Source: Channallabes apus (lineage: Eukaryota > Chordata > Actinopteri > Siluriformes > Clariidae). Taken from it: DNA of 64,000 bases. The position numbers and the translations under genes were made by a program. The notes under the pieces were generated by a model that had not been told where the DNA came from, searched no databases, and saw only the letters and a program-made list of their open reading frames with translations. How positions within the stretch are numbered: the stretch's first letter is position 1; every line of letters starts with the position of its first letter. Below, piece by piece: positions 8,218 to 61,746 of the stretch. The stretch covers positions 11,428,229 through 11,492,228 of the forward strand of contig CM060104.1 of assembly GCA_030522415.1 (NCBI GenBank), in the 5' to 3' direction.

Positions 8218-8394
8218 CAGGGTTCTGTTATGCTGGTAATATCTGTTTAAGAAAATGTGTCGGTATAGGATCTAATATAAAGGTTGATGAATTTGCAGAA
8301 GAGATGAGTGAAATTAGTTAATTCTCTTCAAGGGGAGTAAAGTATTCTAAGTTCCGATCTGACATGGCTAGGTTAACATCTGTATCAATTACAT

Positions 8395-8406
8395 TGTTTC
8401 AAAGCT
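8395..8406. repeat. Target-site duplication of the SINE (left copy)
   Basis: The 12 bases TGTTTCAAAGCT at 8,395-8,406 recur at 8,792-8,803, directly flanking the SINE. L2 copy A has the equivalent unsplit sequence near 4,628, which shows the ancestral empty site. Confidence 0.85.
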
Positions 8407-8791
8407 ATGCGGCACGGTGGTGTAGTGGTTAGCACTGTCGCCTTGCACCTTCAGGGTCTGGGTTCGATTCCCCGGCCAGGCTCGATTCCCGTCTCTGTGT
8501 GCATGGAGTTTGCATGTTCTCCCCGTGCTTGGTGGGTTTCCTCTGGGTACTCCGGTTTCCTCCCACAGTCCAAAGATATGCAGGTTAGGCTAATTGGTGT
8601 TCCCAAAATTGCCCGTAGTGTGTGATTGGGTGTGTGAGTGTGTGTATGTGTGTGTGCCCTGCGATGGATTGGCACCCTGTCCAGGGTGTACCCCGCCTAG
8701 TGCCCGAAGTCTCCTGGGATAGGCTCCAGGTCCCCCGCGACCCTGAACACAGGATTAAGCGGTATAGAAGATGAATGAATGAATGAATGAA
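8407..8791 (+). mobile_element. tRNA-headed SINE (V-SINE/mermaid-like), complete
   Basis: It begins with a tRNA-like head holding RNA polymerase III A and B boxes. The conserved central domain of fish V-SINEs follows (GCATGTTCTCCCCGTGCT and the TCCCACAGTCCAAAGA region), then a CA/GT-rich linker and a LINE-like tail (TCCTGGGATAGGCTCCAG onward). It ends in (GAATGAAT)n. Perfect 12-bp target duplications flank it. In this family the tail recruits a partner LINE enzyme. The open frames seen through it on both strands are not genes. The same family occurs at 10,741, 14,972, 24,340, 31,823 and 32,018. Confidence 0.92.
8418..8471 (+). promoter_or_regulatory. Internal RNA polymerase III promoter of the SINE (A and B boxes)
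   Basis: The A-box-like TGGTGTAGTGG is at 8,418-8,428 and a perfect B box GGTTCGATTCC is at 8,461-8,471, with spacing typical of tRNA genes. It is a SINE head rather than a tRNA gene, because the 3' half of the cloverleaf is replaced by the SINE body. Confidence 0.8.
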
Positions 8792-9272
8792 TGTTTCAAA
8801 GCTTAATTTTATGCCTAATATTTACAATTCTATTATTAAAAAAGTTCATAAAGTCTTCACTATTGCATGATTATGTTGTGGAGATTTCTGCAGTGGTCTT
8901 ACTTCTGGTTAATTTGGCTACGGTATTAAATAAAAATATAGGATTATTTTTGTTATTTTCTATAAGAGTGGAGAGATACGTTGATCTAGGTACACTAAGG
9001 GCTTTCCTATAGTTCAGGATGCTCTATTTCCATGCAATTTGAAATACTAACAATTTAGTTTGACGCCATTTACGTTCTAATTTCCAAGCGGCCTGCTTTA
9101 AAGTGCATCTGTGATCGGACCAGGGAGCAAGTTTCTTATCTCTAATCATTTTAATCATCACCATTAATGACTCTCTTTTTACCTTTCACCTTTTTTAGAA
9201 TATTGGTCCCAATTTAGTTTGCAGCTATCCAAACACTATGTGTTGTTTTGACACCAGGTACACCCTCAGACC

Positions 9273-26070: not shown

Positions 26071-26708
26071 TGTCACATCTGTGCCACCACGGTCCGGGGA
26101 AATAAGATCTGGGTCTCCGGACTACTGAGCCGCACCTTGTCCCCCCTAGTGTGTGAACATGGTATGTCTTCCCCATTAACAGAATGATGGGCACCTGTGT
26201 CTCTTCCATGTGTGTCTCTATAAAAGCCAGTCGAACCCGGACACATTTGTCCGTTCACTGTTGTCTTCATGTTATGTTCGTTTGGTGTCATCTAATCCCT
26301 CTGTGTGTGCGTGTCTCCTCCTCAGGACTGAGCAGAGTCTGCAGGGTCGGGTTAAGACCTGTCATTACAGGTATTGTGGATCAAAGTCAAGGCTGAGACG
26401 TGAGGCGCGAGCGCCATTATCTCATGTGACTGCTACTGTGTTTTTCTTGGAAGTAAAGGACTGTGCTTGTGTGTAACTGTGCCCGCCTGCAGACCCAGCC
26501 TGAGGAGGTTCCCTAAGGATTGTCCCTGTTTGGTTTCATTGTGTTTGTTTTTTGTTGTGTGCTTGTGATTTTGTTTAAGTTTCGTTTTCAACCAAGACTA
26601 TCTTTAGAAGAAAAGAACTTTAAAGAAAAGAGAAAATAAAACGTGAAATTAAGTTTGAACTTGAACCTGCATCTTGCGTCCTTCTTGAATAAGCCAGAGA
26701 TCATGACA
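26071..26708 (+). repeat. 5' LTR of the truncated gypsy element
   Basis: It begins TGTCACATCTG and ends ATCATGACA, giving TGTCA...TGACA inverted ends. TATAAAA is at 26,219-26,225, and the inferred transcription start (26,249) begins the segment complementary to the putative primer binding site. An AAATAAAA-type signal is near 26,634. No 3' LTR is present for comparison. Confidence 0.75.
26249..26257 (+). promoter_or_regulatory. Putative self-primer (5' end of R) of the truncated gypsy
   Basis: GTCCGTTCA starts 30 nt downstream of the first T of the TATA box. It is the exact reverse complement of TGAACGGAC at 26,711-26,719, which lies two bases beyond the LTR end. This is the Tf1-type self-priming layout. 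The pairing is 9 bp here, with mismatches at both ends. Confidence 0.6.
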
Positions 26709-27803
26709 GATGAACGGACCTTCATGGACGCAGCAGGTGTACCCTTGCCTGACGATGACCCTTGCCTCCACAGTTACCTGCGTACCCAGCAGCAGGAGAT
26801 CAGCAGTCTGGCACGAGCCGTTCACGACCTGGCATGCAGCGTGACCCAACTCGCGACATCGAAGCTCCCTCTGGTGACTCCACCAGCGAACGCTACACCT
26901 CAACTACCACGCCCAGCGCCACCGGAAAGGTACGGAGGTAACCCCGAGGGTTGCCGAAAATGTCTGCTAGCTTGCGATCTCTATCTCGCAGATTTTCCAA
27001 ATATGACTGACTCCCAAAAAGTGAGTTTCGTTACACAGCATCTCACAGGAAGAGCGATGGACTGGGCGACAGCGGTGTGGAGCACCGGAGGCGTAGCCAC
27101 CACCAGGTATCGGCGGTTCATCAAGGCACTTCGCGCTGTTTTCGACCACCCAGACCAGGGCAAATCAGGAGAACAGCAGCTGCTGAGGGTGAGACAGGGC
27201 GCTTCCTCAGTCTCAGAATATGCGGTGCACTTCCAAGTGCTGGCTGCAGAAAGCGGGTGGTGTGAAAAAAGCCTACTGGCTCGATTTCGTGACGGATTAA
27301 ACCCGGAGATTCAACTTGAACTCGCGTGCAGAGACGCTGAACTGTCACTGGAGGACAACATAACCTTAGCTATCAAACTGGATCAGCACCTCCGCGGGCA
27401 GCAGCGCCGCCCCCCGCTCCGAGCAGCTCAGCACGCAGCGCTGCAGAACCAGCCCCCCTCAGCAGCCACCTCCCGAGCGCGAAGGAACCTCGACCACCGA
27501 ACCAATGGACCTACAGTAGCCACGTCACGCCTGTCCGCCACGGAGAGATCCCGGAGAATGTCTGCTGGTCTGTGCCTGTACTGTGGAGGCGATGGACACC
27601 TTGTGAAAGCGTGCCCGTTACTGAAAGTAACCCATCGCACCCCCCCACGCACGCACACACCCTTTTGTATTCCTGCACATATTTCATTTAATAATCGTTC
27701 TGTGTCTGTCTTTCCTTTAATAGATTCCGGGTCGCTGGCAACCTCATCTCAGCCTCTCTCCTTTCCGCGCTGCAAGCTCCCGTGTCGAAGCTTCCATCCC
27801 TGA
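26703..27803 (+). pseudogene. gypsy Gag with zinc knuckle, running into protease
   Basis: The frame is open from upstream, and I take Met at 26,703 (MTDERTFMDAAGV) as the start because gypsy A begins MTEPRAV at the matching place. The Met codon overlaps the LTR end. The retrotransposon Gag core is visible (FVTQHLTGRAMDWATAVW, YRRFIKALRAVFDHP, LRVRQGASSVSEYAVHFQ), then a CCHC knuckle CLYCGGDGHLVKAC. After a linker comes the protease motif PLIDSGS at about 27,711-27,731. The frame is lost at about 27,790, where the protease continues in another frame. Gag packages element RNA in the cytoplasmic particle. About 367 codons from this start. Confidence 0.8.
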
Positions 27804-33428: not shown

Positions 33429-33515
33429 TGTAACGAAACTAACCTGGATTGACCAGAAAACGTAGCTTCAGTGGTTTAGCCCTTTGTAGCGTGGATGGTA
33501 AACCCAAACGTCTAA
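33429..33515 (-). repeat. Fragment of a sushi-type LTR, reverse orientation
   Basis: This is the reverse complement of the last ~85 bases of the gypsy A/B LTRs (compare 36,905-36,992 and 45,775-45,862). Recognisable words are AACTAACCT, TGGTTTAGCCC, GTAGCGTGGATGGT and AAACCCAAACG. The rest of the LTR is missing. Confidence 0.75.
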
Positions 33516-33995: not shown

Positions 33996-34149
33996 TGTGT
34001 ATTCGCGGCACTTCCGTGTTCGTGGACAACGGACAAGTGTGCTCCCACTAACAATTCGAATCTCATTCGAGCATTAGTTGCTGCTACCGCATGTGCTCTG
34101 CGTTTGCACAAAAGCGCACTCATCACAAGCGATTGTCAGCCGGACTCTA

Positions 34150-35560
34150 TTTCCCGTTTTTTCGACCGTGTCATCGACCAGCGACGAACCCAGCGGATTT
34201 GGAACAACTCAGACAGGCACTTTCAACACAAGGAACCCTGTTAGGGTTCCACCAGCAAAGCATCAAACAAGTCAGTCAAACATTCTCCTCCATCTCCTCA
34301 CAATTGGAACAACTCCTAGCTACATCCTCTCCTACCATTTGCCAAGAGCCAAACCTCCCGCATCCACGGCCTTGAATGGCACACCCGGAACATGCTGCTC
34401 CTTTGTTTCTCAGTGTTCCCTGTTTCTGGAGCTCCAAGCATCATCTTTTCTCACGGAGCGCTCTAGAGTGGCATTCATGATCACACTCCTAACCGAGCAG
34501 GCAAGCGAGTGGGGAACTGCTGTTTGGGATGCCAACAACCTATGTTGTTCTACTTTCAAGATGTTCACTGAAGAGATGAAAAGGGTGTTCGACTGCTCCA
34601 ACTCTGGCAGGGACACCGCCAGGCAACTACTGGAGCTCCGCCAATACCCTCGCTCTGCTTACGATTATGCTATTGACTTTCGCATACTGGCTGCATCCAC
34701 GAATTGGGACACCCAGGCGCTCTATGATGCCTTCCCTCACGGCCTTTCTGAGGAAATCAAGGATTGCCTGCTCGTCCAGGAGCTACCCAGCGATCTTAAT
34801 GGTCTCATGGAGCTAGCAGGACGTACAGACACTCGGTTATCTCGCAGACACCACACTCAACCTCCATCCTCGCTCAGACCCAGGTCCTCAGCCCCACCTC
34901 GACCGCCTACCTACCCTCTTTCTTCACCAACTTCTAGGTCTGACCCTGAGCCCATGCAGGTGAATCGAACCCGCATCTCTCTGGAGGAGCACCAGCGAAG
35001 ACTCCAGTCTGTTTCATTTCAGAATCTCATTTCTGCATCGGAGGTGAAGGACCTCAATCTCCCAACAACCCTGCATGACAATCCACTTTCCGTTCGGGCC
35101 CTTCATGGAACCCCTTTGCCTGCCATTACCCATCGTACCATCCCAGTTACTCTACAGATTTCTGGTAACCATACAGAAGATCTTCCCTTCCTAGTCATGC
35201 ACCATGCCCATACATCTCTCATCCTTGGACGACCCTGGCTTACCCGGCACAATCCCCACATTGACTGGATAAAGAATACGATCCAGGAATGGAGCCCTTC
35301 ATGTCTGACATCCTGTCTCAAGTCAGCCCGTTACCCACCTGCTACAGATTCCACCGACAAGGACTTCCCTGACCTGTCTACCGTCCCTCCTGAATACACA
35401 GATCTCAAACTGGTTTTCAGCAAGTCACGAGCCCTCTCGCTACCACCTCACAGGCCCAATGATTGTGCTATTGACCTCCTCCCAGGCACCACTCCCCCCA
35501 GGGGGAGGCTATATTCGCTCTCTTCAAAGGAAAGGGAGGTTATGGACAAATATATCTCAG
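34150..35560 (+). pseudogene. gypsy Gag-protease-RT N-terminus, frameshifted
   Basis: The Gag N-terminus is in the frame near 34,180-34,375 (NPADLEQLRQALSTQGTLLG), a pattern common to fish gypsy Gags. The frame then shifts and the Gag core follows (FMITLLTEQASEWGTAVW, FKMFTEEMKRVFD, YDYAIDFRILAAS). The CCHC knuckle and protease catalytic motif are deleted between about 35,010 and 35,040. The protease end (LILGRPWLTRHNPHIDW) and the RT entrance (PPHRPNDCAIDLLPG, RGRLYSLSSKEREVMDKYIS) complete it before the (GT)n tract. No catalytic RT motif remains. Confidence 0.75.
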
Positions 35561-35720
35561 TATATATCTCAGTGTGTGTGTGTGTGTGTGTGTGTGTGAG
35601 TGTGTGTATATTTGTGGACTTCCGTGTTCGCGGACAACAGACAAGTGTGCTCACATCAACAATTTGAATCTCATTCACTTCATGCCGAAATAATCAATCG
35701 AGCATTAGTTGCTGCTATAT

Positions 35721-36622: not shown

Positions 36623-36992
36623 TGTCATGCACACTCAGCCGCGGCCGGCACTAGGACCCGGAAGTAAGACGGTCGCGAACCTGAAAGCATAAAAGGATAC
36701 AAGATGGCGCCGCACACCGCTCTGTCATTGAGTTTTGTCCATGTCATTTCGGAATCGTTCCCGTGTATGTGAGTACTCACTTTCTTGGCTTTGCTTCCAG
36801 ACTGAGTGTGTGTTTATAGAACGAGGGTTAGATTGTGTCTTTCCTTTGCTCATTTATTGTGAGAGTTCTTAGATCAAATCGCGTGATTTTCCTGCCCGCT
36901 TGTGTTCCATCCGCGTTTGGGTTTACCATTCACGCTACAGGGCTAACTGCTAAATCTACGTCTTTTTGGTCGTCATTAGGTTAGTTCAGACA
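36623..36992 (+). repeat. 5' LTR of gypsy A
   Basis: It begins TGTCATGCACAC and ends TTCAGACA. CATAAAAGG at 36,688-36,696 serves as a TATA-like box, and the inferred start of R is 36,719. About 70% similar by eye to the gypsy B LTR, so they are different but related families. Confidence 0.9.
36719..36729 (+). promoter_or_regulatory. Putative self-primer at the 5' end of gypsy A RNA
   Basis: GCTCTGTCATT begins 31 nt after the start of the TATA-like box and is the exact reverse complement of the 11 nt at 36,994-37,004. In Tf1 the first 11 nt of the mRNA fold back and prime minus-strand synthesis; length and position agree. The 3' LTR has the same 11-mer at 40,648-40,658. Confidence 0.75.
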
Positions 36993-36993
36993 G

Positions 36994-37004
36994 AATGACA
37001 GAGC
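36994..37004 (+). promoter_or_regulatory. Putative primer binding site of gypsy A, overlapping the gag start
   Basis: AATGACAGAGC starts one base past the 5' LTR. It pairs with 36,719-36,729 over 11 bp and contains the gag ATG (36,995-36,997) and the codons for Thr2 and Glu3. No room for a conventional tRNA primer site exists between LTR and gag. Confidence 0.75.
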
Positions 37005-38023
37005 CTAGAGCAGTGAACCCAGCGGATCACGCACGCCTGTGCGATGTGGTTGACCAGCATGCTGTGCTTATCAATAAGCTCACCGGGGAGCTCGATTCTC
37101 TGCGCCGGAGTGTCCAAGACGTTGCGGCCTTGCGCCGCGAGGTGGCGGAGCTTAAGTGGGAGAACGCGAGCCTCCGGGCGACTGTTGATGGCATGGCTAG
37201 CGGTCCGCCCGCCGCAGCGGCCCCGCACCCGCCCTTCTGATGTTTTCCTAGCACTTACGGATAAATGGGATGGCACGGATGGGAAGTGCAGTGTGTTTTT
37301 AACATCGCTGGAACTGGTGTTTGAGTTAAATGCCACCAAATACTCCACCGACCGGCTACGCATTGCACTGCTCGTTTCGTTGCTATCAGGGCAGGCAGCA
37401 GAGTGGGCCACGGCAGTCCTGCGCGCTGACACTGACACCCCACACTCGTATAACGAGTTCACCCGTCAGCTTAAGCTAACTTTTGAGCATCCTGCGGGCG
37501 AGGTTGAGGCCGACACGAAGCTCTATCATCTGCGGCGGGGAGGATTGTCCGTGAGCCGGTACACTGCGGACTTCCGCACCCTCGCCATCCAGACCTCCTG
37601 GGGAGACGCAGCCCTCCGGACGTCCTACTTCGAGGGACTGGCTACTCGTATCAAAGACGAGCTAGCTGGACGAGAGCTGCCAGCCACACTGGAGGGGCTG
37701 ATCCAACTGGCCCTCCTCATTGACCAGCGCCTTCTCTCCCGTCCAAAGCCAGCACCTCGAACCCTGCTGCCAGCTCCCACCTATACTCACACCATATCCA
37801 GACCACCACCCACCGTCACCCCGCCTTCACCGGACGTGTCGGATCTCCACCCCCTGCCGTGGTTGACACTGGAGCCGGGGAACCCATGCAACTAGGGCAC
37901 GCCTCCCTGACCGTGGCGGAACGCGAGAGGTGTTACCGCGAAGGACTGTGCGCCTACTGTGGTTCAGCAGCGCACAACCGAGCCACCTGTCCCTTCTGTC
38001 CGGGAAACGCCCAACCCCGGTGA
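36995..38023 (+). pseudogene. gypsy A Gag, two compensating frameshifts
   Basis: The start MTEPRAVNPADHARLCDVVD (36,995) is followed by a coiled-coil-like heptad region (LTGELDSLRRSVQDVAALRR). A one-base loss near 37,225 in a C-rich linker moves the Gag core into the next frame: SDVFLALTDKWDGTDGKCS, LRIALLVSLLSGQAAEWATA, YNEFTRQLKLTFEHPAGEV and VSRYTADFRTLAIQ. A second shift near 37,800-37,840 restores the first frame, in which a CCHC knuckle ([14 protein letters not shown]) is read before a TGA at 38,021. In related elements Gag coats the RNA in particles. The start is chosen because ATG lies within the conserved primer-site segment, as in gypsy B. Confidence 0.82.
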
Positions 38024-38114
38024 ATGAGAGGAGAGACTCACCGGGCACCATCCATCTCTCCGCCACCACCGAAACCACCAGACAACCAGAAACCACCTCA
38101 AGACCTCCTACAAA

Positions 38115-40583
38115 TTGGTGCGCATCAGGGAGGGTGATGAGTGGAAGACGGCCTTCATCACCCCCACTGGACACTACGAGAGCCTGGTTATCCCTTTTGG
38201 ACTCTGCAACGCACCCTCGGCCTTCCAACGATTCATCAACGATGTCCTCAGGGACATGCTAGGCCAATGGGTGATCGTTTATCTGGACGACATATTAATT
38301 TACTCCCGTACCACTGAAGAACACACCCGGCATGTTAGAGCGGTTCTAAAGAGATTGCTCGCCCACCAGCAGTACTGTAAGCTGGAAAAGTGTGCTTTTC
38401 ATGAGCACTCCACCACGTTCCTGGGTTTTATCATCACGCCCCAGGGTGTGGCCATGGACCCGCAGAAGCTGGAGCTTGTACGTCACTGGCCCCTACCCAG
38501 GACACTAAAACAGATCCAACGCTTTCTCGGGTTTGCGAATTTTTTTCGTCGCTTTATCTGGGGCTACAGTAAAGTTGCAGCACCGGTCACTGCACTTACC
38601 AGGCTCTCCACCCATTCCTTCCAACTCAACCCTACCGCCATCTCAGCTTTCCACAGATTCTGCCACCTGTTCACCACCGCACCTATTCTTCTCCATCCGG
38701 ATGCCAGCCAACCGTTCGTTGTGGAGGTGGACGCGTCGGAGGTGGGCGACGGCGCTGTTCTCTCTCAACGAGGTCCAGACCAGAAGCTACACCCATGTGG
38801 CTTCTACTCCAAAAAGTTCAACCCCACTCGGCAGCGATACGGAGTAGGGGACCATGAACTGTTGGGCATAAATTGGGCTTTGGAGGAATGGCGTCACTGG
38901 CTCCAGGGCGCCAGTGTGCCGTTCATCGTCTGGACGGACCACCAGATCCTACTCATGATCCGTAACCTAAAACAGTTAAACCCACGACAGGCACGGTGGG
39001 CCCTGTTCTTCGAACAGTACGATTTCCATCTTTCGTACCGCCCGGGGTCAAAGAACACCAAGCCCGACACCCTCTCCCGTCAGTACGAACAAGAGGCGCC
39101 CCAGGCGGAGCCCGTGCCTGTCCGTCCACCCACCCGGATCATCGCACACCTGCACTGGGACATGGAAACGAGGGTCCGTCAGGCACTGACCAACGAACCC
39201 GCACCGGCAGGCGTGCTGCCCAGACGGCTCTATGTTCCCACTCCACTCAGGCCCGAAGTCCTCCAGTGGGGCCACTCTTCGCCCATCGCGGGACACCAGG
39301 GAACCCGAAGAACCCTCACCTTTGTGGGACGGGCCTTCTGGTGGCCGTCGAGGAGGAGGGAGGTCACCGAGTTCGTCCGGGCGTGCCCAGTGTGCGCCAG
39401 GGCGACGAACTCTAACCAACCAACGCCGGGGGAGCTCCAACCACTCCCAGTTCGCCGTCGGCCCTGGTCGCACATTGCCGTCGACTTCATCACGGGCCTG
39501 CCGGCCTCGGAAGGAAAGGACGTCATCCTCACCATCGTGGACCGCTTCTCCAATGCAGTGCACCTGGTGGCCCTCACCGGACTCCCGTCAGCTAAAAACA
39601 CAGCCGAGCTGATATTGGAGCACGTAGTCCGATTGCATGGGTTCCCCAAGGACATCGTTTCGGACAGAGGTCCCCAGTTCACCGCCCGGTTCTCGAGGGC
39701 TTTCTGCCATCTGATCAATTCGTCCTGCAGTCTGTCCTCCGGTTACCATCCCCAGACGAATGGTCAGACGGAGCGAACCAACCAACAGCTGGACCGTTAC
39801 CTGAGATGCTTCGTGTCGGATCGTCAACGCTCCTGGGCCCGCTACCTCAAGTGGGCTGAGTTGTCCCACAATCTCCATGTGTCCTCAACCACCAACCTAA
39901 GCCCATTTGAGGTGTGCTATGGTTTCCAACCTCCGATGTTCGCCCACCAAGAACCGGAGGTTGATGTACCATCGGCCCAACAGTTGGTTCACCAGTGCCG
40001 GCGGCTATGGCACCAAGCCAACCTCGCCATACGGCGCACCAACACCAGCTACGTAACTCATCACCGCCGCCGGCACCCCCCGGGACGGTTGTACCACATA
40101 GGTGACAAGGTGTGGCTTTCCACCAAGAACCTCCACCTGCACACAGATTCACGAAAGCTATCACCCAGGTTCATTGGCCCATATCGCATCACCCTCAGGA
40201 TCAACCCTGTCACCTACCGGCTCCAGCTGCCTGCGGCGCTCCGGATCCACCCCGTCTTCCACACTTCCCAACTGAAACCATTCATCACCTCACCCATGGT
40301 TACACCCACCCCCCCTGCTCCTCCCCCCGTATCATTGACGGTGGCCCTGCTTACACCGTGCGATGGATCCTCGACGCGCGCCCTTGGGGCAGGGGCACCC
40401 AGTATCTGGTTGACTGGGAGGGCTACGGCCCCGAGGAGCGGTCTTGGGTTCCAGCTCGCTTCGTCCTCGACCCCAGGCTCATTAGGGACTACCGTCACCG
40501 GGTATCCTCCACCCCTGGACCGTCCGGAGTCGGTCCTGGACAGGGGGGTACTGTCATGCACACTCAGCCGCGACCGGCACTAG
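38115..40583 (+). pseudogene. gypsy A Pol: RT (C-terminal half), RNase H, integrase
   Basis: One 822-codon frame is open. It starts inside RT at [13 protein letters not shown], keeps the catalytic [12 protein letters not shown], and reads the connection (LGFANFFRRFI) and RNase H ([45 protein letters not shown]). The integrase follows, with an HHCC-type zinc region (H-X-H then CPVCARA) and a DDE core ([27 protein letters not shown]). The GPY/F module [19 protein letters not shown] is intact. The protease and the RT front with the first catalytic Asp are deleted. After about residue 735 the frame is wrong because a base is missing in the C run at 40,323-40,328, so the chromodomain is read only in the next frame. 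Met at 38,115 is just the first ATG and not a natural start. Confidence 0.88.
40329..40550 (+). pseudogene. Chromodomain at the C-terminus of gypsy A Pol (out of frame)
   Basis: In the frame one base off the main pol frame the sequence reads [20 protein letters not shown], then [19 protein letters not shown], then DPRLIRDYR. The aromatic and WEGYG / SWVP pattern is diagnostic of the chromodomain that chromoviruses carry after integrase and use to direct integration to marked chromatin. A single-base indel at 40,323-40,328 separates it from integrase. Confidence 0.88.
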
Positions 40584-40921
40584 GACCCGGAAGTAAGACG
40601 GTCGCGAACCTGAAAGCATAAAAGGATACAAGATGGCGCCGCACACCGCTCTGTCATTGAGTTTTGCCCATGTCATTTCAGAATCGTTCCCGTGTATGTG
40701 AGTACTCACTTTCTTGGCTTTGCTTCCAGACTGAGTGTGTGTTTATAGAACGAGGGTTAGATTGTGTCTTTCCTTTGCTCAGTTATTGTGCGAGTTCTTA
40801 GATCAAATCGCGTGATTATCCTGCCTGCTCGTGTTCCATCCGCGCTTGGGTTTACCATTCACGCTACAGGGCTAACTGCTAAAGCTACGTCTTTTTGGTC
40901 ATCATTAGGTTAGTTCTGACA
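40552..40921 (+). repeat. 3' LTR of gypsy A
   Basis: 370 bp, TGTCATGC...TTCTGACA, preceded by the purine run GGACAGGGGGG. It matches the 5' LTR apart from about twelve substitutions and no indels that I can see. Confidence 0.9.
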
Positions 40922-41345
40922 AAAATATTTTAGCAGAAATATGAAAGACACCATTGTCAAGCACAAAAGTCCTGATGTGTATTTATTTGCAGCCACAGGA
41001 CCTGGACATGTTGCAATCTTTGAGTTATCCATGAACTCCTCTCCTCTCATGAACTACGCCATCTGCCCAACAGCTAAAGCCTGGGCAAAATTGGACCTTG
41101 CAACCAGTAAATCCACATCAGAATGGCTGAAAAATAGAAAATTAAAGTTTTTGAATAACTTAGTCGTGACCAAGTCCAGACCTCAACCCAACTGAAATGC
41201 TGTGGTTGGACCTTAAGTGCATTAGCATAAGCATAAGCGAATACCCAAAGCTCAATGAACTGAAGCAATGTTGTAAAGAAGAATGTGCCAAAATTCCTTT
41301 ACAACAAGAGTGACTCATAAATGAATTGATTACTTCAATATTAAA
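40922..41345 (+). mobile_element. Tc1-like family 1 transposase fragment, right of gypsy A
   Basis: It continues the transposase split at 36,622. Readable pieces are ATGPGHVAIFELSMNSSP, a catalytic-domain segment around WLKNRKLKF, and a decayed SPDLNPIEMLW-type stretch at about 41,170-41,205. The D and E of the DDE triad cannot be placed in a single frame. It ends near 41,345, just before the L2-type LINE. Confidence 0.75.
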
Positions 41346-41388
41346 TATTGTCTCGTTTAAAATAATTCAATATTAGAATCAGACATTC

Positions 41389-44300
41389 CAAGATGGCGCC
41401 AGTGTTTGTGGCTTGCCGTCTGTCATCTGTCTTACTTGTGTGTTTATTATTACTTTTAGCTTCACAAAATATCTTCTCACTACTGGTGTATGATCGCCAA
41501 TCACTACTGAATCTTCGTTGGTCTGCAGTGGATTGGGGGCAATTTGACAATGAAGTACGTGATTCTCTCCCACCACTGTTATCGGGGATACCGGCTTTCC
41601 TCTACCGGGCCCCACGCTCACCTCGCCGGAGAAAGAGTCACAGGCGCCGAGGTAAACGCGGCGGGCGATTAGTGAAGTTGAAGGCTTTTCTGGCTCAACA
41701 TGGATCGAGTACTCGCCTCTCTGTTTCCTGGCGATTCTGTGATGAGGTCGACTCATGGTTAGTGCCTGTTTCTGGCTCGGATCAGTGGAGTGAAACACCG
41801 CGACCCCGCCCACTCTACCTGCGCCAGCGAGGAGTGAATCTCCAGAATCTGCGGCCTCTGGCGCGCGCTCCCCTCGCTACTGCTGTATCAGCTCCGGCTC
41901 CCATCAGGATGGGCCTGGTAAACACCAGATCCGTAATGAACAAAACGTTTATCTTAAAGGAGTTTTTTACCTCACAGGAATTGGATTTCCTCTGTGTGAC
42001 TGAAACCTGGCTGTCTCCTGGTGAGTCCAGCGCGATCTCTGAACTCCTGCCGTGTGATTGCCGGTATTTAAATACTCCGCGGTCCTCTGGTCGTGGAGGA
42101 GGTCTAGCTACTGTTTTTAAATCGAAGTTTGTCTGTAAACAGTTGTTTCTCCCGGTCTTTTTCTCCAGCTTTGAAATAAGCCTTTTTGAGCTGGCTCAGT
42201 CTCCTGCGCTGCTGTGTGCTGTGGTCTACCGGCCGCCTAAGTACAATAAGGACTTCTTAAGTGACTTTGCTGATTTCTTGGCTGAATGTATGCCTAGATA
42301 TGATCAAGTGGTAATTGTTGGGGATTTTAATATTCATGTGTGCTGTCCTGACAAGCCCCTGGTAAAGGACTTTTTAGATTTAGTGGACTCTTTTAACTTT
42401 ATTCAGTCTGTCAATGGTCCCACTCAGAAATGTGGGCACACATTGGATCTTGTACTGTCTCGTGGCTTATCTGTCCTCAATGTGGAAATTGGGGATGCTG
42501 TGTTTTCAGACCATATGCCTGTTTTATTTGATTTTGTACCTTTCTCTCAACCTGTTAAATCGTGTGATTCGGTTCGTCACTGCCGTGTCTTTAATCCCAC
42601 CTCCGCCACTCATTTTTCTGCAATTTTCACTTGTGACTGGGATTTACAATCCTCGGCGTCGCTCAGCACTGAGGAGCTAATATTCCAGTTTGATTCTGCC
42701 TGTCAAATCGCATTGGATTCGGCAGCTCCCTTAAAAATCAGACGATCAAAGGCTAGATCAGAGCCATGGCTAAATGATGTCACCCGTGCTGCTAGAAGGG
42801 AATGCCGGAGAGCTGAACGGAGGTGGAAAAAGGACAGGTTACAGGTGTCATTGGAAATGTTAAGAGGAAGCTGGTGTCATTATCAAAAAGCTGTGAAAGC
42901 CGCTAAAACAAATTTTTTTTCTGATCTTATTGTTTCTAATTCTCATGACTCTCGTGTTCTTTTTAACACATTGAACTCTGTTCTTAATGCTCATGAACCT
43001 GTCCCTTTGAAGGCTTCTATGGAAACCTGGAACCTGGATGAATTTCTTCACTATTTTATGGATAAGGTTAAACACATCAGGTCCCTTGTTTTACCATCTG
43101 TTAGCGACCCACCAATTTTAAGACCTTGTATGAATGTGTTCGAGCATTTTGAGCCTGTCTCCCTTACTTTTTTAGGGGATCTGGTTTCCTGTAGTAAGCC
43201 ATCTGGCTCCCCTTCTGATATTACCCCTCCTAATTTTGTTAAGGAAGTTTTCCCCATTTTGGGTCCTTTTATTCTTGCTATTATCAATAGCAGTTTAATT
43301 TCTAGTGTGATGCCGAAAAATTTTATACATGCTGTGGTGCAACCCTTGCTAAAAAAGTCTGGCCTGGATCCTTCTGTTTTGTCAAATTTTAGGCCTATCT
43401 GCAAGCTACCTTTTTTGGCCAAACTCCTGGAAAAAATTGTCCATTTGCAACTGCAGCCCTTCCTTTATGAACAGTCAATTTTGGAAGTTTTGAGTTTTGA
43501 GTCAGTACTGAGTCTGCTCTTCTAAGAGTTTTTAATGACATTTTCTTAGCAACCGACTCCGGGGACTCTGTACTACTTGTGCTTCTAGATTTAACAGCGG
43601 CTTTCGACACCATAGACCATGAGATTCTTTTATCCAGGTTGGAACAGTGGGTGGGCATTACAGGCTCAGCTTTGCAGTGGTTTAGGTCCTACCTCTCTGA
43701 TAGAACCTTCTGTGTCAGTGTAGATGGTTTCACTTCCAAATCTGCTGCCCTTCCTTGGGGGGTACCACAGGGCTCCATTCTTGGTCCACTTTTATTCTCC
43801 TTGTATTTGCTCCCACTTGGAGCTATTTTCCGGAAATATAACATCTCCTTTCATTTTTATGCAGATGACTGTCAGGTTTACCTCCCATTAAAACACAGTG
43901 GTGCATGTTCTGTCAAGCTTCTTCTGGACTGCCTTGTTGATGTTAAAAGATGGTTGGCGTTTAATTTCTTGAATGTCAATGAGGGAAAGACCGAAGTTAT
44001 GTTGTTTAGACCAAATGGCTCCCGCAAATCTCCTCGCTTTGACCTCTCCTCCTTGGCCCCTTTTGAGAAAGCCATGATTACAAATTTGGGTATTAAAATG
44101 GATCCTACTCTAAAAATGGATAGCCAAGTAAATGCTGTTGTAAAATCCAGTTTTTTCCATTTGAGGCGAGTAGCAAAGATTAAGCCTATATTGTCAAGGC
44201 TGGATCTGGAATCGGTTGTCCATGCTTTTATAACCTCTCGTCTTGACTACTGTAATGCTTTATTCTTCGGAATCAACCATACCACTATGGCTCGCCTACA

Positions 44301-44998
44301 GTTGGTGCAAAATGCCACAGCTCGTTTTTTAACTGGTACAGGCAGACGGGAGCATATTACCCCAATCTTGGCTTCCCTTCACTGGCTTCCAGTGTATTTT
44401 AGGATCCGTTTTAAAATTCTTTTATTTGTATTTGAGTGTTTAAATGGTCTTGCCCCTGCCTATCTGGTGGAATTGCTGCACCCATATGTTCCATCTCGCT
44501 CCCTCAGGTCTACTGACAAGCTGCATCTCCAAATTCCAAAATCCCGATGCAAACTTCGAGGTGATCGAGCCTTTTCAGTAGCTGCTCCTCATCTATGGAA
44601 TGAGTTACCCTTACTCATTCGACAAGCTCCCTCAGTGGCTGTTTTTAAATCTCGTTTAAAAACTCATTTCTACTCTCTGGCCTTCAACCCAGTGTGAAGT
44701 ATTTTTATTGAGATGTTTTATGTTTTATTTCTTGCTGCTACTTTTATTATCATTATTTTTTATTATTATTAGAAGTATGTTATTTGGTTCGCTATGTTCT
44801 TAGTTGCTTCTTTTCTTGTTACCATCATTTAAATTTTTTAATTTATTTTTACATTTATTTATTTTTATTATTTTATATTATCGATTTACCCTGCTGTTTT
44901 TTGGCCTAAATGTTGACTTTTGTACAGCACTTTGGTCAGCTTTGTTGTTGTTTTAAAGTGCTTTAGAAATAAAGTGGTATGGTATGGTATGGTATATT
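41389..44998 (+). mobile_element. L2-type LINE, nearly full length
   Basis: The element starts near CCAAGATGGCGCC at 41,389, a start typical of this group, and has one long ORF2 region. It ends in an AT-rich 3' UTR with TTTAAAGTGCTTTAGAAATA and a (TGGTA)n tail at 44,978-44,995. It is a different family from the copies at 3-9 kb, although the RT C-terminus is alike. No clear target duplication is seen, which is usual for L2/CR1-type elements. One frameshift is the only lesion found in ORF2. Confidence 0.85.
41393..44697 (+). pseudogene. L2-type LINE ORF2: endonuclease and reverse transcriptase, single frameshift
   Basis: The first piece (41,393-43,525; 710 codons) has a hydrophobic N-terminal segment (residues about 10-30), a basic region (PRRRKSHRRRGKRGGR) and then an apurinic-type endonuclease. 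Visible motifs are GLVNTRSV, CVTETWL, VVYRPPKYN, VIVGDFNIH and FSDHMPVLFDF. The RT begins with LSNFRPICKLPFLAKLLEK. The second piece (in frame from about 43,505; first Met 43,579; ends 44,697) has [35 protein letters not shown], catalytic YADD, and the C-terminal HITPILASLHWLPV and FKSRLKTHFYSLAF. A small deletion around 43,490-43,510 removes the QSGFR-type motif and shifts the frame. Start chosen at the first ATG after the 5' end, inside AAGATGGCG. Confidence 0.88.
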
Positions 44999-45044
44999 AT
45001 AAACCTTATGAATACATGCTATTTACAATGTTTATGTGCAAACT
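44999..45044. other. Short spacer between LINE and Tc1 copy
   Basis: 46 bases of AT-rich DNA with no identity. Confidence 0.4.
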
Positions 45045-45474
45045 GCTGTTCTTGGCAGTATAGTATAGACATGATAAAAAGTTAGTATCCACTCTTTTTC
45101 TAGGTTTTTTTTTTGGTTCAAAGTCATCTAATGATAGTTAGTCTTAGTATTAGACAAATCCATCCTTAGACAAACGACTACATACAACTTTTTTTTTCAA
45201 AAGTATTTATTTAACAAAAAATTTATCCAAAAAGAAAAAAAAACATTTAGGTCATATGTGTGATTACTTCAAGTGATATTGAAGTAATTGCTGCTAAAAG
45301 TGAATCTACAAGTAATTGCTGCTAAAGGTGAATCTACAAGAATGATGTTGAATCATGGAAGATACTTAGTATTAACCACATGTTTGTTTGTTTGTCATTC
45401 TGTTAAAAAAAATGGCATGGAGAAAAAAGTTATATGCTGTTATTTGTCTGAAGTTGTATTTACCTAAACAGGTA
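45045..45474 (+). mobile_element. Internally deleted Tc1-like family 1 copy
   Basis: The left terminal segment (45,045-45,240) resembles 33,241-33,428. It is joined directly to the end of a transposase gene (GATTACTTCAAG, GTAATTGCTGCTAAA) and the right terminal segment (GAAGTTGTATTTACC at 45,450-45,464). A 28-29-base unit (TAATTGCTGCTAAAAGTGAA...) is tandemly duplicated near 45,287-45,340. Gypsy B has inserted at or near its right end. Confidence 0.7.
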
Positions 45475-45479
45475 CCCAC

Positions 45480-45862
45480 TGTCATGCACACTCAATCTGC
45501 GCCCAGCACTAGGACCCGGAAGTAAGGCGGGCGCCAAACCAGAAGTATAAAAGAGGTAAACATTCGTTGGCTTACCGCTCAGTCATTGAGGTTCGGCCCA
45601 TGTCGGTTACGGTTGTCATCCTTCGAATCTGTGAGTACTCACCATTCTTGGGTTTTTACTTTCTGATCTTGAGTGCGTATTTCTAGGACGCGGGTTAAAT
45701 TTGTGTTTTTCCCTTGCTCCCCTTTCGTGAGAGTCCTTAGACTAAATCGCGTAGTTATCCTATCCACTCGCTAATCTCCGCGTTTGGGTTCACCATCCAC
45801 GCTACATTGGGCTAACCGCTAAAGCTACGTCTTCTGGTCACCGAGGTTAGTTCAATCTGACA
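45480..45862 (+). repeat. 5' LTR of gypsy B
   Basis: TGTCATGCACAC...CAATCTGACA. TATAAAA is at 45,546-45,552, and the inferred R start at 45,577 lies 31 nt from the first T. Confidence 0.93.
45577..45587 (+). promoter_or_regulatory. Putative self-primer at the 5' end of gypsy B RNA
   Basis: GCTCAGTCATT is the exact reverse complement of 45,864-45,874. It differs from the gypsy A self-primer at one position (A for T). The 3' LTR carries the same 11-mer at 50,269-50,279. Confidence 0.75.
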
Positions 45863-45863
45863 G

Positions 45864-45874
45864 AATGACTGAGC
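45864..45874 (+). promoter_or_regulatory. Putative primer binding site of gypsy B, overlapping the gag start
   Basis: AATGACTGAGC begins one base past the LTR end. It contains ATG (45,865-45,867), ACT (Thr2) and GAG (Glu3). Gypsy A has ACA at Thr2. The synonymous difference is matched by the opposite change in the self-primer. Confidence 0.75.
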
Positions 45875-49527: not shown

Positions 49528-50203
49528 GGTGTGCTACGGTTTCCAACCTCCGATGTTCGAACACCAAGAACCGGAGGTTGACGTACCCTCGGCCCACCAG
49601 TTGGTCCGCAGGTGTCGACGGGTATGGCGCCTTGCCAATGCAGCCATACGACAAGCCAACACCCGTTACATCACCCAACACCGCCGTCGACACCCACCGG
49701 GACGATTGTACCACGTAGGTGACAAAGTCTGGCTGTCTACACAGAATTTACATCTCCACACTGAATCCAAGAAACTCTCCCCCAGATTCATCGGCCCTTA
49801 TCGCATCACCCACCGTATCAACCCTGTCACCTACCGGCTCCAGCTGCCTGCGGCGCTCCAGATCCACCCAGTATTCCATACCTCTCACCTCAAACCCTTC
49901 ATCACATCACCCATGATTACACCCACCCTCCCAGCTCCTCCTCCCCGGACCATCGACGGCGGTCTCGCCTACACCGTACGCCGAATCCTCGACTCGCGCC
50001 CTCGGGGCAGAGGTACTCAGTACCTTATTGACTGGGAGGGCTATGGCCCCGAGGAGCGGTCTTGGATCCCGGCCCGGTTCATTCTCGACCCCGAACTGAT
50101 TCGAGACTACCGTCGCCGGGTATCCTCCACCCCCAGGATCGTCAGGAGCCGGTCCTGGACAGGGGGGTACTGTCATGCACACTCAATCTACGCCCGGCAC
50201 TAG
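49510..50203 (+). pseudogene. gypsy B Pol, third part: integrase C-terminus and chromodomain
   Basis: It is open in a third frame: [20 protein letters not shown], then [19 protein letters not shown] (GPY/F module) and [12 protein letters not shown]. The chromodomain [15 protein letters not shown] / [20 protein letters not shown] follows, complete and in frame with the GPY/F module, unlike gypsy A. The frame runs on into the 3' LTR, ending at 50,203. Confidence 0.9.
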
Positions 50204-50554
50204 GACCCGGAAGTAAGGCGGGCGCCAAACCAGGAAGTATAAAAGAGGTAAACAAACGTTGGCTTACCGCTCAGTCATTGAGTTTCGGCCCATGTCGGTT
50301 ACGGTTGTCATCCTTCGAATCTGTGAGTACTCACCATTCTTGGGTTTTTACTTTCTGATCTTGAGTGTGTATTTCTAGGACGCGGGTTAAATTTGTGTTT
50401 TTCCCTTGCTCCCCTTTTGTGAGAGTCCTTAGACTAAATCGCGTAGTTATCCTATCCACTCGCTAATCTCCGCGTTTGGGTTCACCATCCACGCTACATT
50501 GGGCTAACCGCTAAAGCTACGTCTTCTGGTCACCGAGGTTAGTTCAATCTGACA
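50171..50554 (+). repeat. 3' LTR of gypsy B
   Basis: 384 bp, TGTCATGC...CTGACA, followed by the CCCAC duplication. One inserted base and about seven substitutions distinguish it from the 5' LTR. Confidence 0.93.
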
Positions 50555-50636
50555 CCCACAATGATTTGCTACTATAAAATCAAGCATCATTATTTCTCCT
50601 TGCATGCTATAACCAGTGATCATAGATGTTGTAATA

Positions 50637-51980: not shown

Positions 51981-52439
51981 TGTAACACAGAGTGGACTCA
52001 CACAGGAATATGGTTTTCAGGAAGAGTGAAGTTTATTGACAGTTTCGTAATATGCAATACGGAGACGGTAAAACTTTGTTTTACTGATTGTACGTTGATC
52101 CGTTTCCGAAGCGGGTGAGCGGACAGCGAGGAATATTGACTTGGACATACTTTGGAACACGTACCCCGGATTCACGACTGAGATAGAGGACGACAACTGG
52201 GATACTTCCTAGGAAACACAGATAGCACAGGTAAGTAATTGCGATAAGTAATCTCTTTACTTGCGTGTCGGAGATTCGGTCCACTTTCGATGGTACGAGC
52301 TCGGTTGCGAAGTGGAGCGTGATGTGTGTATTTGTAGGTGTGTCTTGATTGACCTCAGGTGGTGATGATTAGAATTCCGGAGATGGAGGGCACAACACAC
52401 AACGTCTGACTGTGTTCGGAGCCTGGCCCAACTGCGACA
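51981..52439 (-). repeat. 3' LTR of gypsy C
   Basis: 459 bp; on the minus strand TGTCGCAGTTGG...CTGTGTTACA. TACAAATAC acts as a weak TATA-like box. Confidence 0.9.
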
Positions 52440-56638: not shown

Positions 56639-56647
56639 GTCCGAACT
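56639..56647 (-). promoter_or_regulatory. Putative primer binding site of gypsy C
   Basis: On the minus strand AGTTCGGAC lies two bases past the 5' LTR. It can pair with GTCCGAGCT at 58,530-58,522, which starts 30 nt from the TATA-like box (eight Watson-Crick pairs and one G-U). The gag ATG lies outside this site. Confidence 0.5.
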
Positions 56648-56649
56648 TC

Positions 56650-58656
56650 TGTAACACAGAGTGGACTCACACAGGAATACGGTTTTCAGGAAGAGTGAAG
56701 TTCATTGGCAGTTTCATAATATGCAATACGGAGACAGTAAGGCTAAATCCCAATTCTATTTTCTACCCCTTTAAATATTTTTTAAATATTTCCCCTAAGA
56801 AATGGGACACCACAACAACACTGTTATACGTCATCATACGTTGTCGCTAGTTCCTAATGTTACGTCAGAGGACATGCGCCGATGTTTATCACACATTCCA
56901 ATAAGAGAGAGATTACTCACTCCCAAAGTTTTTTTGCGCCGTATTTCGATTTTTTAAAAAGTTGCTTATTTTCACCACGAAAACGGATGAGCCTTCGGGT
57001 TTCCTCAGCCGTCCCTATACAGAATATAAATTACAAAATTGTGGTCACATTGCAATAAGTAAGAATAGTGTAAGCACCGTTCATTTACATGTACACATTG
57101 TAACGCTCGTGTTTGATTTTAGAGCTTATTACAAAATTTCGGGGTCTTAAATCTAAATAAGGGCATATTACACTTACTTCCGGTATTGCGCAACCTTTGC
57201 GGAGCAAGAGAAGACACACGACAACTCTTAAACCAAACCGATGTGTATTAAAGTGAACTAAAGACAAGAACAAACAAACCAATAAGGTACACCAACAAAA
57301 CTATATATACAACAGTAAACAATGTCAGTAATGTATGCGAGTGTGTGCGTGCATATGTATGAATGTCCAATCCGTGTTATTGTGAATGTATGGGATGGTG
57401 AACGGGGGAAATGGTTCGGTCTCACCAGAGAATGATGTAAAGTCCGGGAGCACGAGGTAACGGAATGAGATGGGTATTGATTGAAACCAGGAAACAATAA
57501 TCCACGGAAACTCCAACCAAGCTCTCTCTCTCTCATCCAAAGTACAGCGCGCTGTCTTCATTTCTCCCCCCCGTAGCGTCATGCCGATTCCGGCTTTATG
57601 CCGGCACACGTGGTCGGAACCAAAACCCCGTCGTCATGGAGACAAAGATAAACCGTATAGGGTTTGTTAAAAAGGCCTGGTGGTTTTACATTTTTTCTAA
57701 CCACTTTATTTTTAGCCCAAATAACTACTCCTTTATGTGGCTGCGCTACAACATATGGCCGTAAGCAAAACACACAATGCGTTATCAAATGCTCAGCAAA
57801 CTGCCGTTCTACTGAACTTTCATATTTGTTTGTAGCATGCAGTAAAGTGTACAGTATGCGACATAAAAATATATTTTTGTATAAGTTTGCTATCCGCTAG
57901 CAAACTTTAGCGATTTTTTTGCAAACGTTTCTTTACAGAACATCACCATAAACACAAACACAAGACTAGAGGTAATATACATATAATGAAAACTTGTCAT
58001 AAAAATCTTTATTAATGGCAAAAATTAACATTTATGTATCTGCTTGCTCGAGTGAGCAGCCATGTTGAAAATTTCGCTTAGCCCTTCGTTTGAAGTGTGG
58101 TCCCAAAAAATCTTAGTTTGGAGCGCTATCTGGCCCTTCCCCTTCCCCCTACCCCTCCAACCAAAAGAGAAATGAGACACCCCTACCCCTTCACGTGAAC
58201 GTGCCAAACGGAGGGGTAGGGCTAAGTGTAGGGGTAAGGGGTAGAATTGGGATTCAGCCTAAGACTTCTTACTGTAGCAAAGTTTAAACGGAGTGAAAAG
58301 CGTTTTACTGATTGTCCGTTGATCCGGTTCCGAAGCGGGTGAGCGGACGGCGAGGAATATTGACTTGGAGATACTTTGGAACACGTACCCCAGATTCACG
58401 ACTGAGATAGAGGACGACAACTGGGATACTTCCTAGGAAACACAGATAGCACGGGTAAGTAATTGTGATAAGTAATCTCTTTACTTGCGTGTCGGAGATT
58501 CGGTCCACTTTCGACGGTACGAGCTCGGACGCGGAATGGAGCGTGATGTGTGTATTTGTAGGTGCGTCTTGACTGACCTCAGGTGGTGATGATTAGAATT
58601 CCGGAGATGGTGGGCGTTGTCTCTGACTGTGTTCGGAGCCTGGCCCAACTGTGACA
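56650..58656 (-). repeat. 5' LTR of gypsy C, interrupted by a MITE
   Basis: The outer parts (56,650-56,739 and about 58,261-58,656) match the 3' LTR. The extra 1,521 bases are a separate element. A further ~40-base difference just right of the MITE (58,261-58,303) may be older LTR sequence deleted from the 3' copy. Confidence 0.88.
56740..58260. mobile_element. Non-autonomous DNA element nested in the gypsy C LTR
   Basis: This 1,521-bp block is present in one LTR and absent from the other. Terminal inverted repeats AGGCTAAATCCCAATTCTA (left) and AGGCTGAATCCCAATTCTA (right, reverse complement) match at 18 of 19 positions and continue in C-rich CTACCCCTT words. No frame inside has a recognised domain. 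Target duplication is uncertain: AGACAGTA on the left and AGACTTCT on the right match at only five of eight. The superfamily is not identified. Confidence 0.75.
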
Positions 58657-59699: not shown

Positions 59700-60053
59700 T
59701 GTAAGTGCCATATCGCACTTGTTATGAATTTGCTGTTGTGTTTATTTTATTTTATTTGCTGTTATTTCATTTATTCTACCTTGTTCTATTCATTAGCAAA
59801 GCATTAAGCATTAAGTTTGTTACATAAGCCATAAGCTTTATATTTCTTAGTCATGCATCATAAGTTGACAATCGTAGGTTGGTCTGTGATGTCATTCTAC
59901 TATTACATGCATTTGTGTGACTGTGATATGTTAGAGAGTTCAGTCTAGATGTGGAAGGCTAAGGAAACACAAGCTTTTGACCGTAAGCCCGGTAAGCTAA
60001 GAATGTGAGATACAGCAACTAGGTTGTTGTAACCGTAAGCTCCCGTAAGTGGA
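59700..60053 (+). repeat. 5' LTR of the BEL/Pao element, truncated
   Basis: 354 bases match the first part of the right LTR, with a ~5-base difference in the TTATT run and a duplicated ATAAGCC. It ends at CCCGTAAGTGG, where the sequence jumps into pol. Confidence 0.85.
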
Positions 60054-60062
60054 AATGTTAAC

Positions 60063-60927
60063 TGGATCCATGGTCCCTCCTTTCTCAAAGAAGTAGAGTG
60101 CAAATGGCCTGAAAATATTCATGACACATCAATAAAAGAAAATTTTGATGAAAATGCTGATGAAGTTAAGCTCTCAGCTTTAGTGAATATTGTGAGCATT
60201 ACAAAATACACAGACACAGACGCAGTGAGTAAACTGATTAATCATCACTCTGACTGGCACAAGTTAAAAAGATCCGTTGCCTGGATCCTTCGCATCAGAG
60301 ACATGCTGAAACAAAAAACAGAAAGGGTTAAAACACAAGTAGATGACCCAAAGACAGAAAATCACAAGTCTCTAAAAGCTCAAGACCTAACAAGAGCAGA
60401 AAACAAAATCATTAAGTTCACTCAAAGACAAAATTTTAAGGAAGAACTTCTCACGTTGCAAAAGGGTAGAGCAGCAGCAGAATTCAAACAGGGAATTCAC
60501 ACACAGCCAAAACGAAAGGCATCTGTGAAAAGAAACAGCTGCTCGCCCAAAATGGAACCTCTGACACCAAACCACCTGCTGCTGATGAAAAAACAGCCAA
60601 ACCTGCCCTCTGGATTCTTCAAAAAGGAAGACATCTATGCACGTCGCAGGGAGAAGCAGATCCAGCATCTATCAGACCTGCTCTGGAAGCGATGGGTGCG
60701 TGAATACTTGCCCTTGTTCCAGGGGCGGCAAAAATGGTTTCAAAACAAAAAAAACCTCTCGCTTGGAGATATAGTGTTAATAACTGATGAGTCTTCTCCA
60801 AGCAATTCATGGGTTATTGGATAAATCACGAAAGTGTTCCCAGAGACGTGTGTTAGTTAAAACTAAGACCAACTCTCTGGACAGACCCATCGACAAGCTG
60901 TGCCTCATATGTGAAATGGACTGTTAA
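60063..60927 (+). pseudogene. BEL/Pao Pol C-terminus (integrase end)
   Basis: The frame opens with [20 protein letters not shown], runs through [37 protein letters not shown] and [21 protein letters not shown]. It then reaches the typical BEL/Pao integrase tail: [58 protein letters not shown] stop TAA replaces Lys at about 60,822. After a further frame change VLVKTKTNSLDRPIDKLCLI ends at 60,927. The catalytic DDE triad is upstream of the deletion and missing. A Met-started open piece is 60,183-60,824. Confidence 0.82.
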
Positions 60928-61113
60928 ATGTGTGGTAATATGTTATGAAATTTGATGCAAACACAAATGTAAACACCTGAGATAAATATCACACACTTAA
61001 AAGATTTAAAACGTTTTAGAAGGTTAAGAATGTTTGATTTCATGGCTTTATCAAAAAAAAAAAACACAAAATTGTAATTGTCAGTCTCCATGCCTGTCAA
61101 TTAGGGGCTGGAA

Positions 61114-61746
61114 TGTAAGTGCCATATCGCACTTGTTATGAATTTGTTGTTGTGTTTATTTTATTTTATTTTATTTGCTGTTATTTCATTTATTCTACCT
61201 TGTTTTATTCATTAGCAAAGCATTAAGCATTAAGTTTGTTACATAAGCTTTATATTTCTTAGTCATGCATCATAAGTTGACAATCGTAGGTTGGTCTGTG
61301 ATGTCATTCTACTATTACATGCATTTGTGTGACTGTGATATGTTAGAGAGTTCAGTCTAGATGCGGAAGGCTAAGGAAACACAAGCTTTTGACCGTAAGC
61401 CCGGTAAGCTAAGAATGTGAGATACAGCAACTAGGTTGTTGTAACCGTAAGCTCCCGTAAGTGGATATATACAGCAAGAGTGTTATTATATTCGTAAGCT
61501 AAGACTGTAATTTACAAGATACAGCAAACAGGTTGTTGTAAAAGTCAGAGATTTGCAAGATGCAGCAACTGGTGTCTGTAATCACAGTGGATTTACTCAA
61601 GACGACTGTATGAAGTGTTGATTCTTTGATGCTGACAAAATAAACTACAGTACAAGAGACAAAGAGATTGGACTTCTGTCGTGTGAGTGAAACTTTAAAC
61701 CAAAGCTACGCGTCAAAACTGGTGAAATAATATGACCGCATCTACA
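61114..61746 (+). repeat. 3' LTR of the BEL/Pao element
   Basis: Complete 633-bp LTR with TG...CA ends. ACAAAATAAACTACAG near 61,634-61,649 contains an AATAAA signal. Repeated GTAAGCTAAGA and ACAGCAAC words occur in its middle. Confidence 0.85.

Follow-up and report, generated by a model that had tools for sequence, protein, structure and literature searches.

The question raised by this locus is how two long terminal repeat (LTR) retrotransposons of the gypsy type, here called A and B, prime their reverse transcription. The elements lie in a stretch of 64,000 nucleotides (nt) from the fish Channallabes apus (assembly GCA_030522415.1, contig CM060104.1, positions 11,428,229 to 11,492,228), which was analyzed as a whole and is referred to as the window. 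A sequence-only reading of this DNA had reported that an 11-mer within the LTR of each element returns as its exact reverse complement just behind that LTR, and had proposed that the elements prime with their own RNA instead of a transfer RNA (tRNA). The analyses reported here indicate that A and B, together with two further elements of the window, C and D, are very probably Tf1/sushi-type LTR retrotransposons, whose minus-strand DNA synthesis is primed by the 5′-terminal 9-11 nt of the element's own transcript, annealed to the primer binding site (PBS).

Layout of elements A and B

The features of the two elements on which the proposal is based are the following.

36623-36992, plus strand: 5′ LTR of A, with TG...CA ends and 96.5% identity to the 3′ copy over the aligned stretch
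36688-36695, plus strand: TATA-like box of A, CATAAAAG, starting 31 nt 5′ of R+1
36719-36729, plus strand: putative self-primer of A, GCTCTGTCATT, inferred RNA nt 1-11; 11/11 pairs with 36994-37004, all 11 in the minimum free energy (MFE) fold
36994-37004, plus strand: PBS of A, AATGACAGAGC, exact reverse complement of GCTCTGTCATT; gag ATG inside, at 36995-36997
40552-40921, plus strand: 3′ LTR of A; R 11-mer again at 40648-40658
45480-45862, plus strand: 5′ LTR of B, 97.9% identity to the 3′ copy over the aligned stretch; target duplication CCCAC at 45475-45479
45546-45553, plus strand: TATA box of B, TATAAAAG, starting 31 nt 5′ of R+1
45577-45587, plus strand: putative self-primer of B, GCTCAGTCATT; 11/11 pairs with 45864-45874, all 11 in the MFE fold
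45864-45874, plus strand: PBS of B, AATGACTGAGC, exact reverse complement of GCTCAGTCATT; gag ATG inside, at 45865-45867
50171-50554, plus strand: 3′ LTR of B; R 11-mer again at 50269, target duplication CCCAC directly after, at 50555

The coordinates and the 11/11 pairing reported for both 11-mers were confirmed. The first segment had been placed 31 nt from a TATA-like box and the second one base after the LTR; the boxes indeed start at 36688 in A and 45546 in B, and the LTRs end at 36992 and 45862, a single spacer G separating LTR and PBS in both elements. A and B share about 76-80% DNA identity and their primer/PBS duplexes differ at one pair only, where, as had been noted, the change on one side is compensated on the other and all 11 pairs are kept. 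B is flanked by a perfect target duplication of 5 bp (CCCAC), and no perfect target duplication was found around A (flanks AAAGC / AAAAT). In both elements the PBS contains the gag start codon (AATGACA/TGAGC, reading MTEP). The covarying base occupies the third position of a codon for Thr, where the change is synonymous, and therefore the protein does not constrain the PBS side alone at that position.

A search of the window with GCTCNGTCATT, allowing at most one mismatch, returned 9 matches against 3.8 expected, and 2/100 shuffles reached 9. The count of 11-mers alone is thus modest evidence; the strength lies in exact 11/11 pairing at two independently fixed places (TATA+31 and LTR+1), which recurs in other families.

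The identity of the elements was examined by profile matches. The domains of A (Retrotrans_gag/Ty3_capsid, RVT_1, RT_RNaseH and rve) follow the Ty3/gypsy order, and the SH3_Tf2-1 domain (PF24626) was found at the integrase C-terminus of both A (E 2.4e-23) and B (E 3.8e-24), B also carrying a chromodomain (PF00385, E 3.3e-11). The assignment to the Tf1/sushi group is based on these domains together with the R/PBS layout, the chromodomain having been checked in A and B. Scans of viral contigs with reverse transcriptase (RT) pieces or an RT alignment matched no relative.

Elements C and D

The same arrangement occurs in two more elements of the window, with a duplex of 9 nt.

56650-58656, minus strand: 5′ LTR of C, split by an insertion at 56741-58301; 58302-58656 and 56650-56740 each match the 3′ LTR at 51981-52439; flanking duplication CTATC
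58522-58530, minus strand: putative self-primer of C, GTCCGAGCT, 30 nt after TACAAATA; 8 Watson-Crick pairs and 1 G-U pair with the PBS
56639-56647, minus strand: PBS of C, AGTTCGGAC, following the LTR end CA + GA
26071-26708, plus strand: 5′ LTR of D, TGTCACATC ... CATGACA
26249-26257, plus strand: putative self-primer of D, GTCCGTTCA, 30 nt after TATAAAA at 26219; 9/9 pairs with the PBS
26711-26719, plus strand: PBS of D, TGAACGGAC, following the LTR end CA + GA, within the gag frame opening at 26703

The RT of C, encoded on the minus strand, is about 47% identical to that of A. The 3′ LTR copy of C has diverged at the R arm (GCAACCGAGCTC), the pairing arm being present in the 5′ LTR. D is represented by its 5′ end only, no 3′ LTR having been found within the window. 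In D and its kin the gag start codon is among the terminal bases of the LTR (26703-26705 in D) and the PBS is coding sequence; judging from the reading frames, the sequence of the primer is linked to that of the Gag N-terminus in A, B, D and the kin of D.

The insertion in the 5′ LTR of C is about 1.56 kb long, has complementary ends (AATCCCAATTCTA / TAGAATTGGGATT) and is probably a nested DNA transposon. A fifth element, E, shows an open gag-protease frame of 529 codons at 34078-35667 and a TATA-like promoter region near 33647. Its promoter resembles by eye that of the L086 type, but the stretch to gag is shorter, and E was left out as a further self-primed member.

Relatives across the genome

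Relatives were sought in the 1.16-Gb assembly holding the window. The LTR of A retrieved 20 loci, with 11/11 pairs in 12 of them, 10/11 in two (L008 and L012) and 4-7 pairs in the remaining six, which seem to be LTRs lacking a PBS next to them. Among the 30 loci retrieved with the gag start of B, 22 showed 11/11 pairs and three 10/11, while five scored lower because the LTR was lost or broken. The gag of C returned 30 loci as well, 23 of which pair over 9/9 positions as GTCCGGGCT/AGCCCGGAC, the PBS being anchored by the LTR end. The others show 8 Watson-Crick pairs plus 1 G-U (L055, L063 and L066), 7 plus 2 G-U (L056), 8 (L064) or 7 plus 1 G-U (L052); L051, which is element C of the window, scored only 7/9, its R arm lying beyond the flank scored.

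A further 18 loci were taken as 20 short stretches. Both arms were visible and paired over 9-11 nt in 13/18 (L081-L088, L091, L092, L093, L095 and L098); the R arm of L086 and L087, pairing 10/10, was located in the next 550 nt upstream, outside the first stretch. The PBS is visible and the R arm lies outside the stretch in L089, L096 and L097, and the L094 stretch ends before the PBS. The pairing length depends on the type: A, B and L098 pair over 11 nt, L086 and L095 over 10 nt, and C, D, L081, L088 and L093 over 9 nt. R+1 is a G preceded by a pyrimidine and lies 29-31 nt downstream of a TATA-like box, the distances at the loci having been taken from 36-nt strings and not from an independent promoter predictor. 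The duplex begins 1-2 nt after the LTR CA in all 15 tabulated rows. A conventional tRNA-complementary site, which the sequence-only reading had named as an argument against its own proposal, was looked for in the same rows, and TGG, the match for the tRNA 3′ CCA end, was absent at the PBS start in 15/15.

Covariation of primer and PBS

The sequence-only reading had suggested comparing the pairing of relatives with shuffled controls. Across 11 distinct primer types, 98/99 positions form Watson-Crick pairs with the type's own PBS, whereas pairing with the PBS of another type averages 4.3/9 with a maximum of 8. Permutations gave a mean of 52.1 and a maximum of 89, and none of 200,000 reached 98; since the rows had been chosen as paired through an inverted-repeat search, these tests measure specificity and not an unbiased frequency of pairing. 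Eight of the nine pair positions vary among the 11 types, the first pair (G-C) being constant. In a shift control, 14/14 rows attained 8/9 in the true register or a single step along it and in no other register.

The types were also reduced to seven lineages, which are our own grouping by gag identity and not a tree, of families that share ancestry. Own pairing amounted to 63/63, a value reached only by the true arrangement among 5040 permutations, the next best giving 57. At the lineage-pair positions both sides differ in 111/189 and one side only in 0/189. Divergence without compensation, the outcome held to count against the proposal, is absent between lineage representatives and present in single copies of the A, B and C types.

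Genome-wide, the matched combinations of R and PBS occur 268 times for A and 1587 times for B (gap ranges 252-282 and 255-285), and the two crossed forms together 4 times. Two types akin to D gave 33 matched pairs, including at least one doubled place, and 50, with 0 crossed; all of these are counts of copies sharing descent, not of independent events. The two types differ in the coding PBS (GAA versus GCA in the gag frame), the protein having changed along with the pair. As read from the sequences, the difference between A and B is a single substitution that many copies have inherited and weak evidence alone, and the covariation evidence is broad across families. A property proposed for vertebrate sushi elements has in this way been tested with many primer types from a single genome, every one of which fits the PBS of its own type.

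Predicted folding

RNA segments beginning at R+1 and ending shortly after the PBS were folded for 12 representatives. The whole duplex was present in the MFE fold of all 12, with a mean pair probability of 0.92-0.99. Together with the preference of the 11 types for their own PBS and with TGG in 0/15 rows, the folds support the self-priming proposed by the sequence-only reading.

Several observations, besides the selection of rows and the shared descent of lineages and copies mentioned above, weigh against self-priming. The whole leader exceeds shuffled sequences in stability by a mild margin, 2/200 shuffles folding as well as A (z -2.5) and 6/100 as well as B (z -1.75). The 'pretzel' duplexes that flank the primer duplex in Tf1 were sought in 20 tests on 10 representatives, and only L081 went beyond z -3; D after the PBS (-1.8) and L069 before it (-1.9) followed, the remaining values being weaker or positive. 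No chromodomain match at E<=1 was obtained in the piece of A tested. In E no 9-nt R/PBS pair was found at the expected places in the window and no PBS could be recognised, and L090 has a PBS-like stretch with no partner in 571 nt. The D-type pattern, on one strand, gave 1 match in the backwards control. Finally, uncompensated changes occur in single copies of the A type (L008, L012), the B type (L030, L037, L048) and the C type (L052, L056, L063, L064, L066), which are taken as probable decay after insertion.

A proposed mechanism and its alternatives

Beyond the layout, pairing, family-by-family covariation and predicted folds demonstrated above, the priming cycle can be outlined by analogy with Tf1. 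Transcription would start from the G of R, 29-31 nt past the TATA-like box, and the RNA 5′ end would pair with the PBS sited 1-2 nt past the 5′ LTR. As in Tf1, RNase H would cleave after the paired stretch and the freed primer 3′ end would be extended into U5, so that the element's own first 9-11 RNA nt would prime minus-strand DNA synthesis. Plus-strand copying of the primer might then write the PBS of each new copy and carry a change in R into the PBS; such copying would keep the pair matched and leave a C templated by the cap.

This last step is suggested by the base that follows the PBS duplex (PBS+1), opposite the RNA cap, which is C in 15/15 rows, the following base being variable. The base before R+1 is C or T and never G in the same 15 rows, and therefore the PBS+1 C is not paired with the LTR. 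PBS+1 is also C in four PBS-only loci, if the end of their PBS is placed by analogy. In elements primed by a tRNA, plus-strand synthesis makes a copy of the tRNA. A paper by Atwood-Moore et al., whose title reportedly contains the words 'is not removed during reverse transcription', is relevant to such copying of the primer. According to parts of two published sources, reverse transcriptases can copy the RNA cap as an added C (PMC6280763, PMC8401752).

We therefore consider as a tentative possibility that the PBS, instead of being inherited, is rewritten in every replication cycle, with the capped self-primer as template for the plus strand. Covariation would then arise without compensatory selection, and rewriting could perhaps explain both the exact, sharply bounded complementarity and a cap-derived C, or 'cap footprint'. 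Conceivably, R would also drift freely, even altering Gag residues (GAA to GCA in the kin of D), and the PBS would follow. Against cap copying, the PBS+1 C may be an unchanged ancestral base, the lineages being few and from one genome. If rewriting takes place, covariation of the duplex reports a copying step in place of selection; the position facing the cap would then hold a DNA trace of the copied RNA cap, which can be checked in any genome with such elements.

Selection on the duplex had been put forward in the sequence-only reading together with covariation. Covariation stood (98/99 own pairs); selection did not follow from it, as copying of the PBS from the primer would suffice. Compensatory point mutation under duplex selection, a different cause of covariation within the same priming machine, is nevertheless a serious candidate, if somewhat short of an even chance. 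It is the usual reading of covariation, and the G-U pairs in L055, L056, L063, L066 and C fit wobble intermediates of such mutation. On the other hand, one-sided differences number 0/189 between the seven lineage representatives, which were chosen as paired; the match ends sharply at R+1 and at nt 9-11, and duplex selection leaves the invariant C opposite the cap unexplained, none of these points being decisive.

Two other explanations would remove self-priming itself. The duplex could be real and serve another role, a cap-proximal stem over or abutting the gag start that controls translation, dimerisation or packaging, with a tRNA or tRNA fragment as primer. In A and B the PBS does contain the gag ATG, which in D and its kin falls at the end of the LTR, and a stem at nt 1-11 is expected to hinder ribosome loading. 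We regard such a role as improbable: the PBS arm occupies the canonical primer site, 1-2 nt past the LTR, in 15/15 rows, the duplex does not include the start codon in the C type, L093, L095 and L098, and TGG occurs at the LTR end in no row, although the PBSs were not compared with tRNA fragments. Chance or shared ancestry, by which the 11-mers would be relics of one ancestral inverted repeat, could account for A and B, about 76-80% identical with one pair different. This explanation is already contradicted by the own-versus-other pairing of types and lineages, 8 of 9 positions having changed among 11 primer types that each match their own PBS, and its probability is very small. Self-priming by the RNA 5′ end is thus the reading compared below with known systems.

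Comparison with known self-primed elements

Reportedly, Levin (1995, 1996) is the reference for Tf1 and Tf2 of Schizosaccharomyces pombe, and Butler et al. (2001) that for the vertebrate Tf1/sushi group, including sushi-ichi of Takifugu. The fish elements resemble Tf1 and Tf2 in the complementarity of the RNA 5′ end to the PBS and in the Tf2-type SH3 domain. In Tf1, as described in an excerpt of PMC7175516, the first 11 RNA nt are complementary to the PBS and RNase H cuts between nt 11 and 12. In the fish elements, in contrast, the primer is 9, 10 or 11 nt long by family, judged by pairing, the gag ATG lies inside or beside the PBS, and the 'pretzel' flanking duplexes are not clearly found.

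They share with vertebrate Tf1/sushi elements such as sushi-ichi a fish host, the Ty3/gypsy chromovirus type and, very probably, self-priming, a likeness drawn without comparison to the sushi-ichi sequence. Self-priming, said in the sequence-only reading to have been proposed for vertebrate sushi elements, has been published for vertebrate members, being presented in part of PMC10085805 as a trait common to the Tf1/sushi group, in fungal and vertebrate hosts alike. Since it is already documented for the group, the mechanism is not new, and the fish elements join a known kind. Tj1 of S. japonicus and Tosmo/Tcry likewise have a PBS whose sequence complements the 5′ end of the RNA, and a CA-ended 5′ LTR, according to excerpts of PMC4600332 and PMC10085805; they differ from the fish elements, as far as these excerpts go, in their fungal hosts and in a Gag/Pol stop-codon arrangement.

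For the plant Tcn1 clade and the TAR copia lineage, an excerpt of PMC6317226 gives predicted self-primers as LTR stretches complementary over at least 10 bp, 0-5 bp past the 5′ LTR. The logic of that prediction, so far as excerpted, is the one used here, but it concerns plants, and its 10-bp floor would miss the 9-nt duplexes of C, D and L093. From such 9-nt duplexes it appears that self-primed elements are undercounted when annotation demands at least 10 bp. In the portions of the open-licence full-text literature consulted, neither a primer/PBS covariation analysis nor a cap-derived base was found.

Other features of the window

A direct repeat of about 2 kb, with 90-94% identity, occupies 2877-4990 and 6640-9152 and holds minus-strand reverse-transcriptase frames (RVT_1). 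Between A and B, endonuclease and reverse-transcriptase frames at 41393-43525 and 43579-44697 probably belong to a long interspersed nuclear element (LINE). At 59700-61468, repeats of 95.6% identity (59700-60056 and 61114-61468) flank a DUF5641 frame at 60183-60824, an arrangement which we take to be possibly a BEL/Pao remnant. An inverted fragment of an LTR end of the A/B type is present at 33437-33510.

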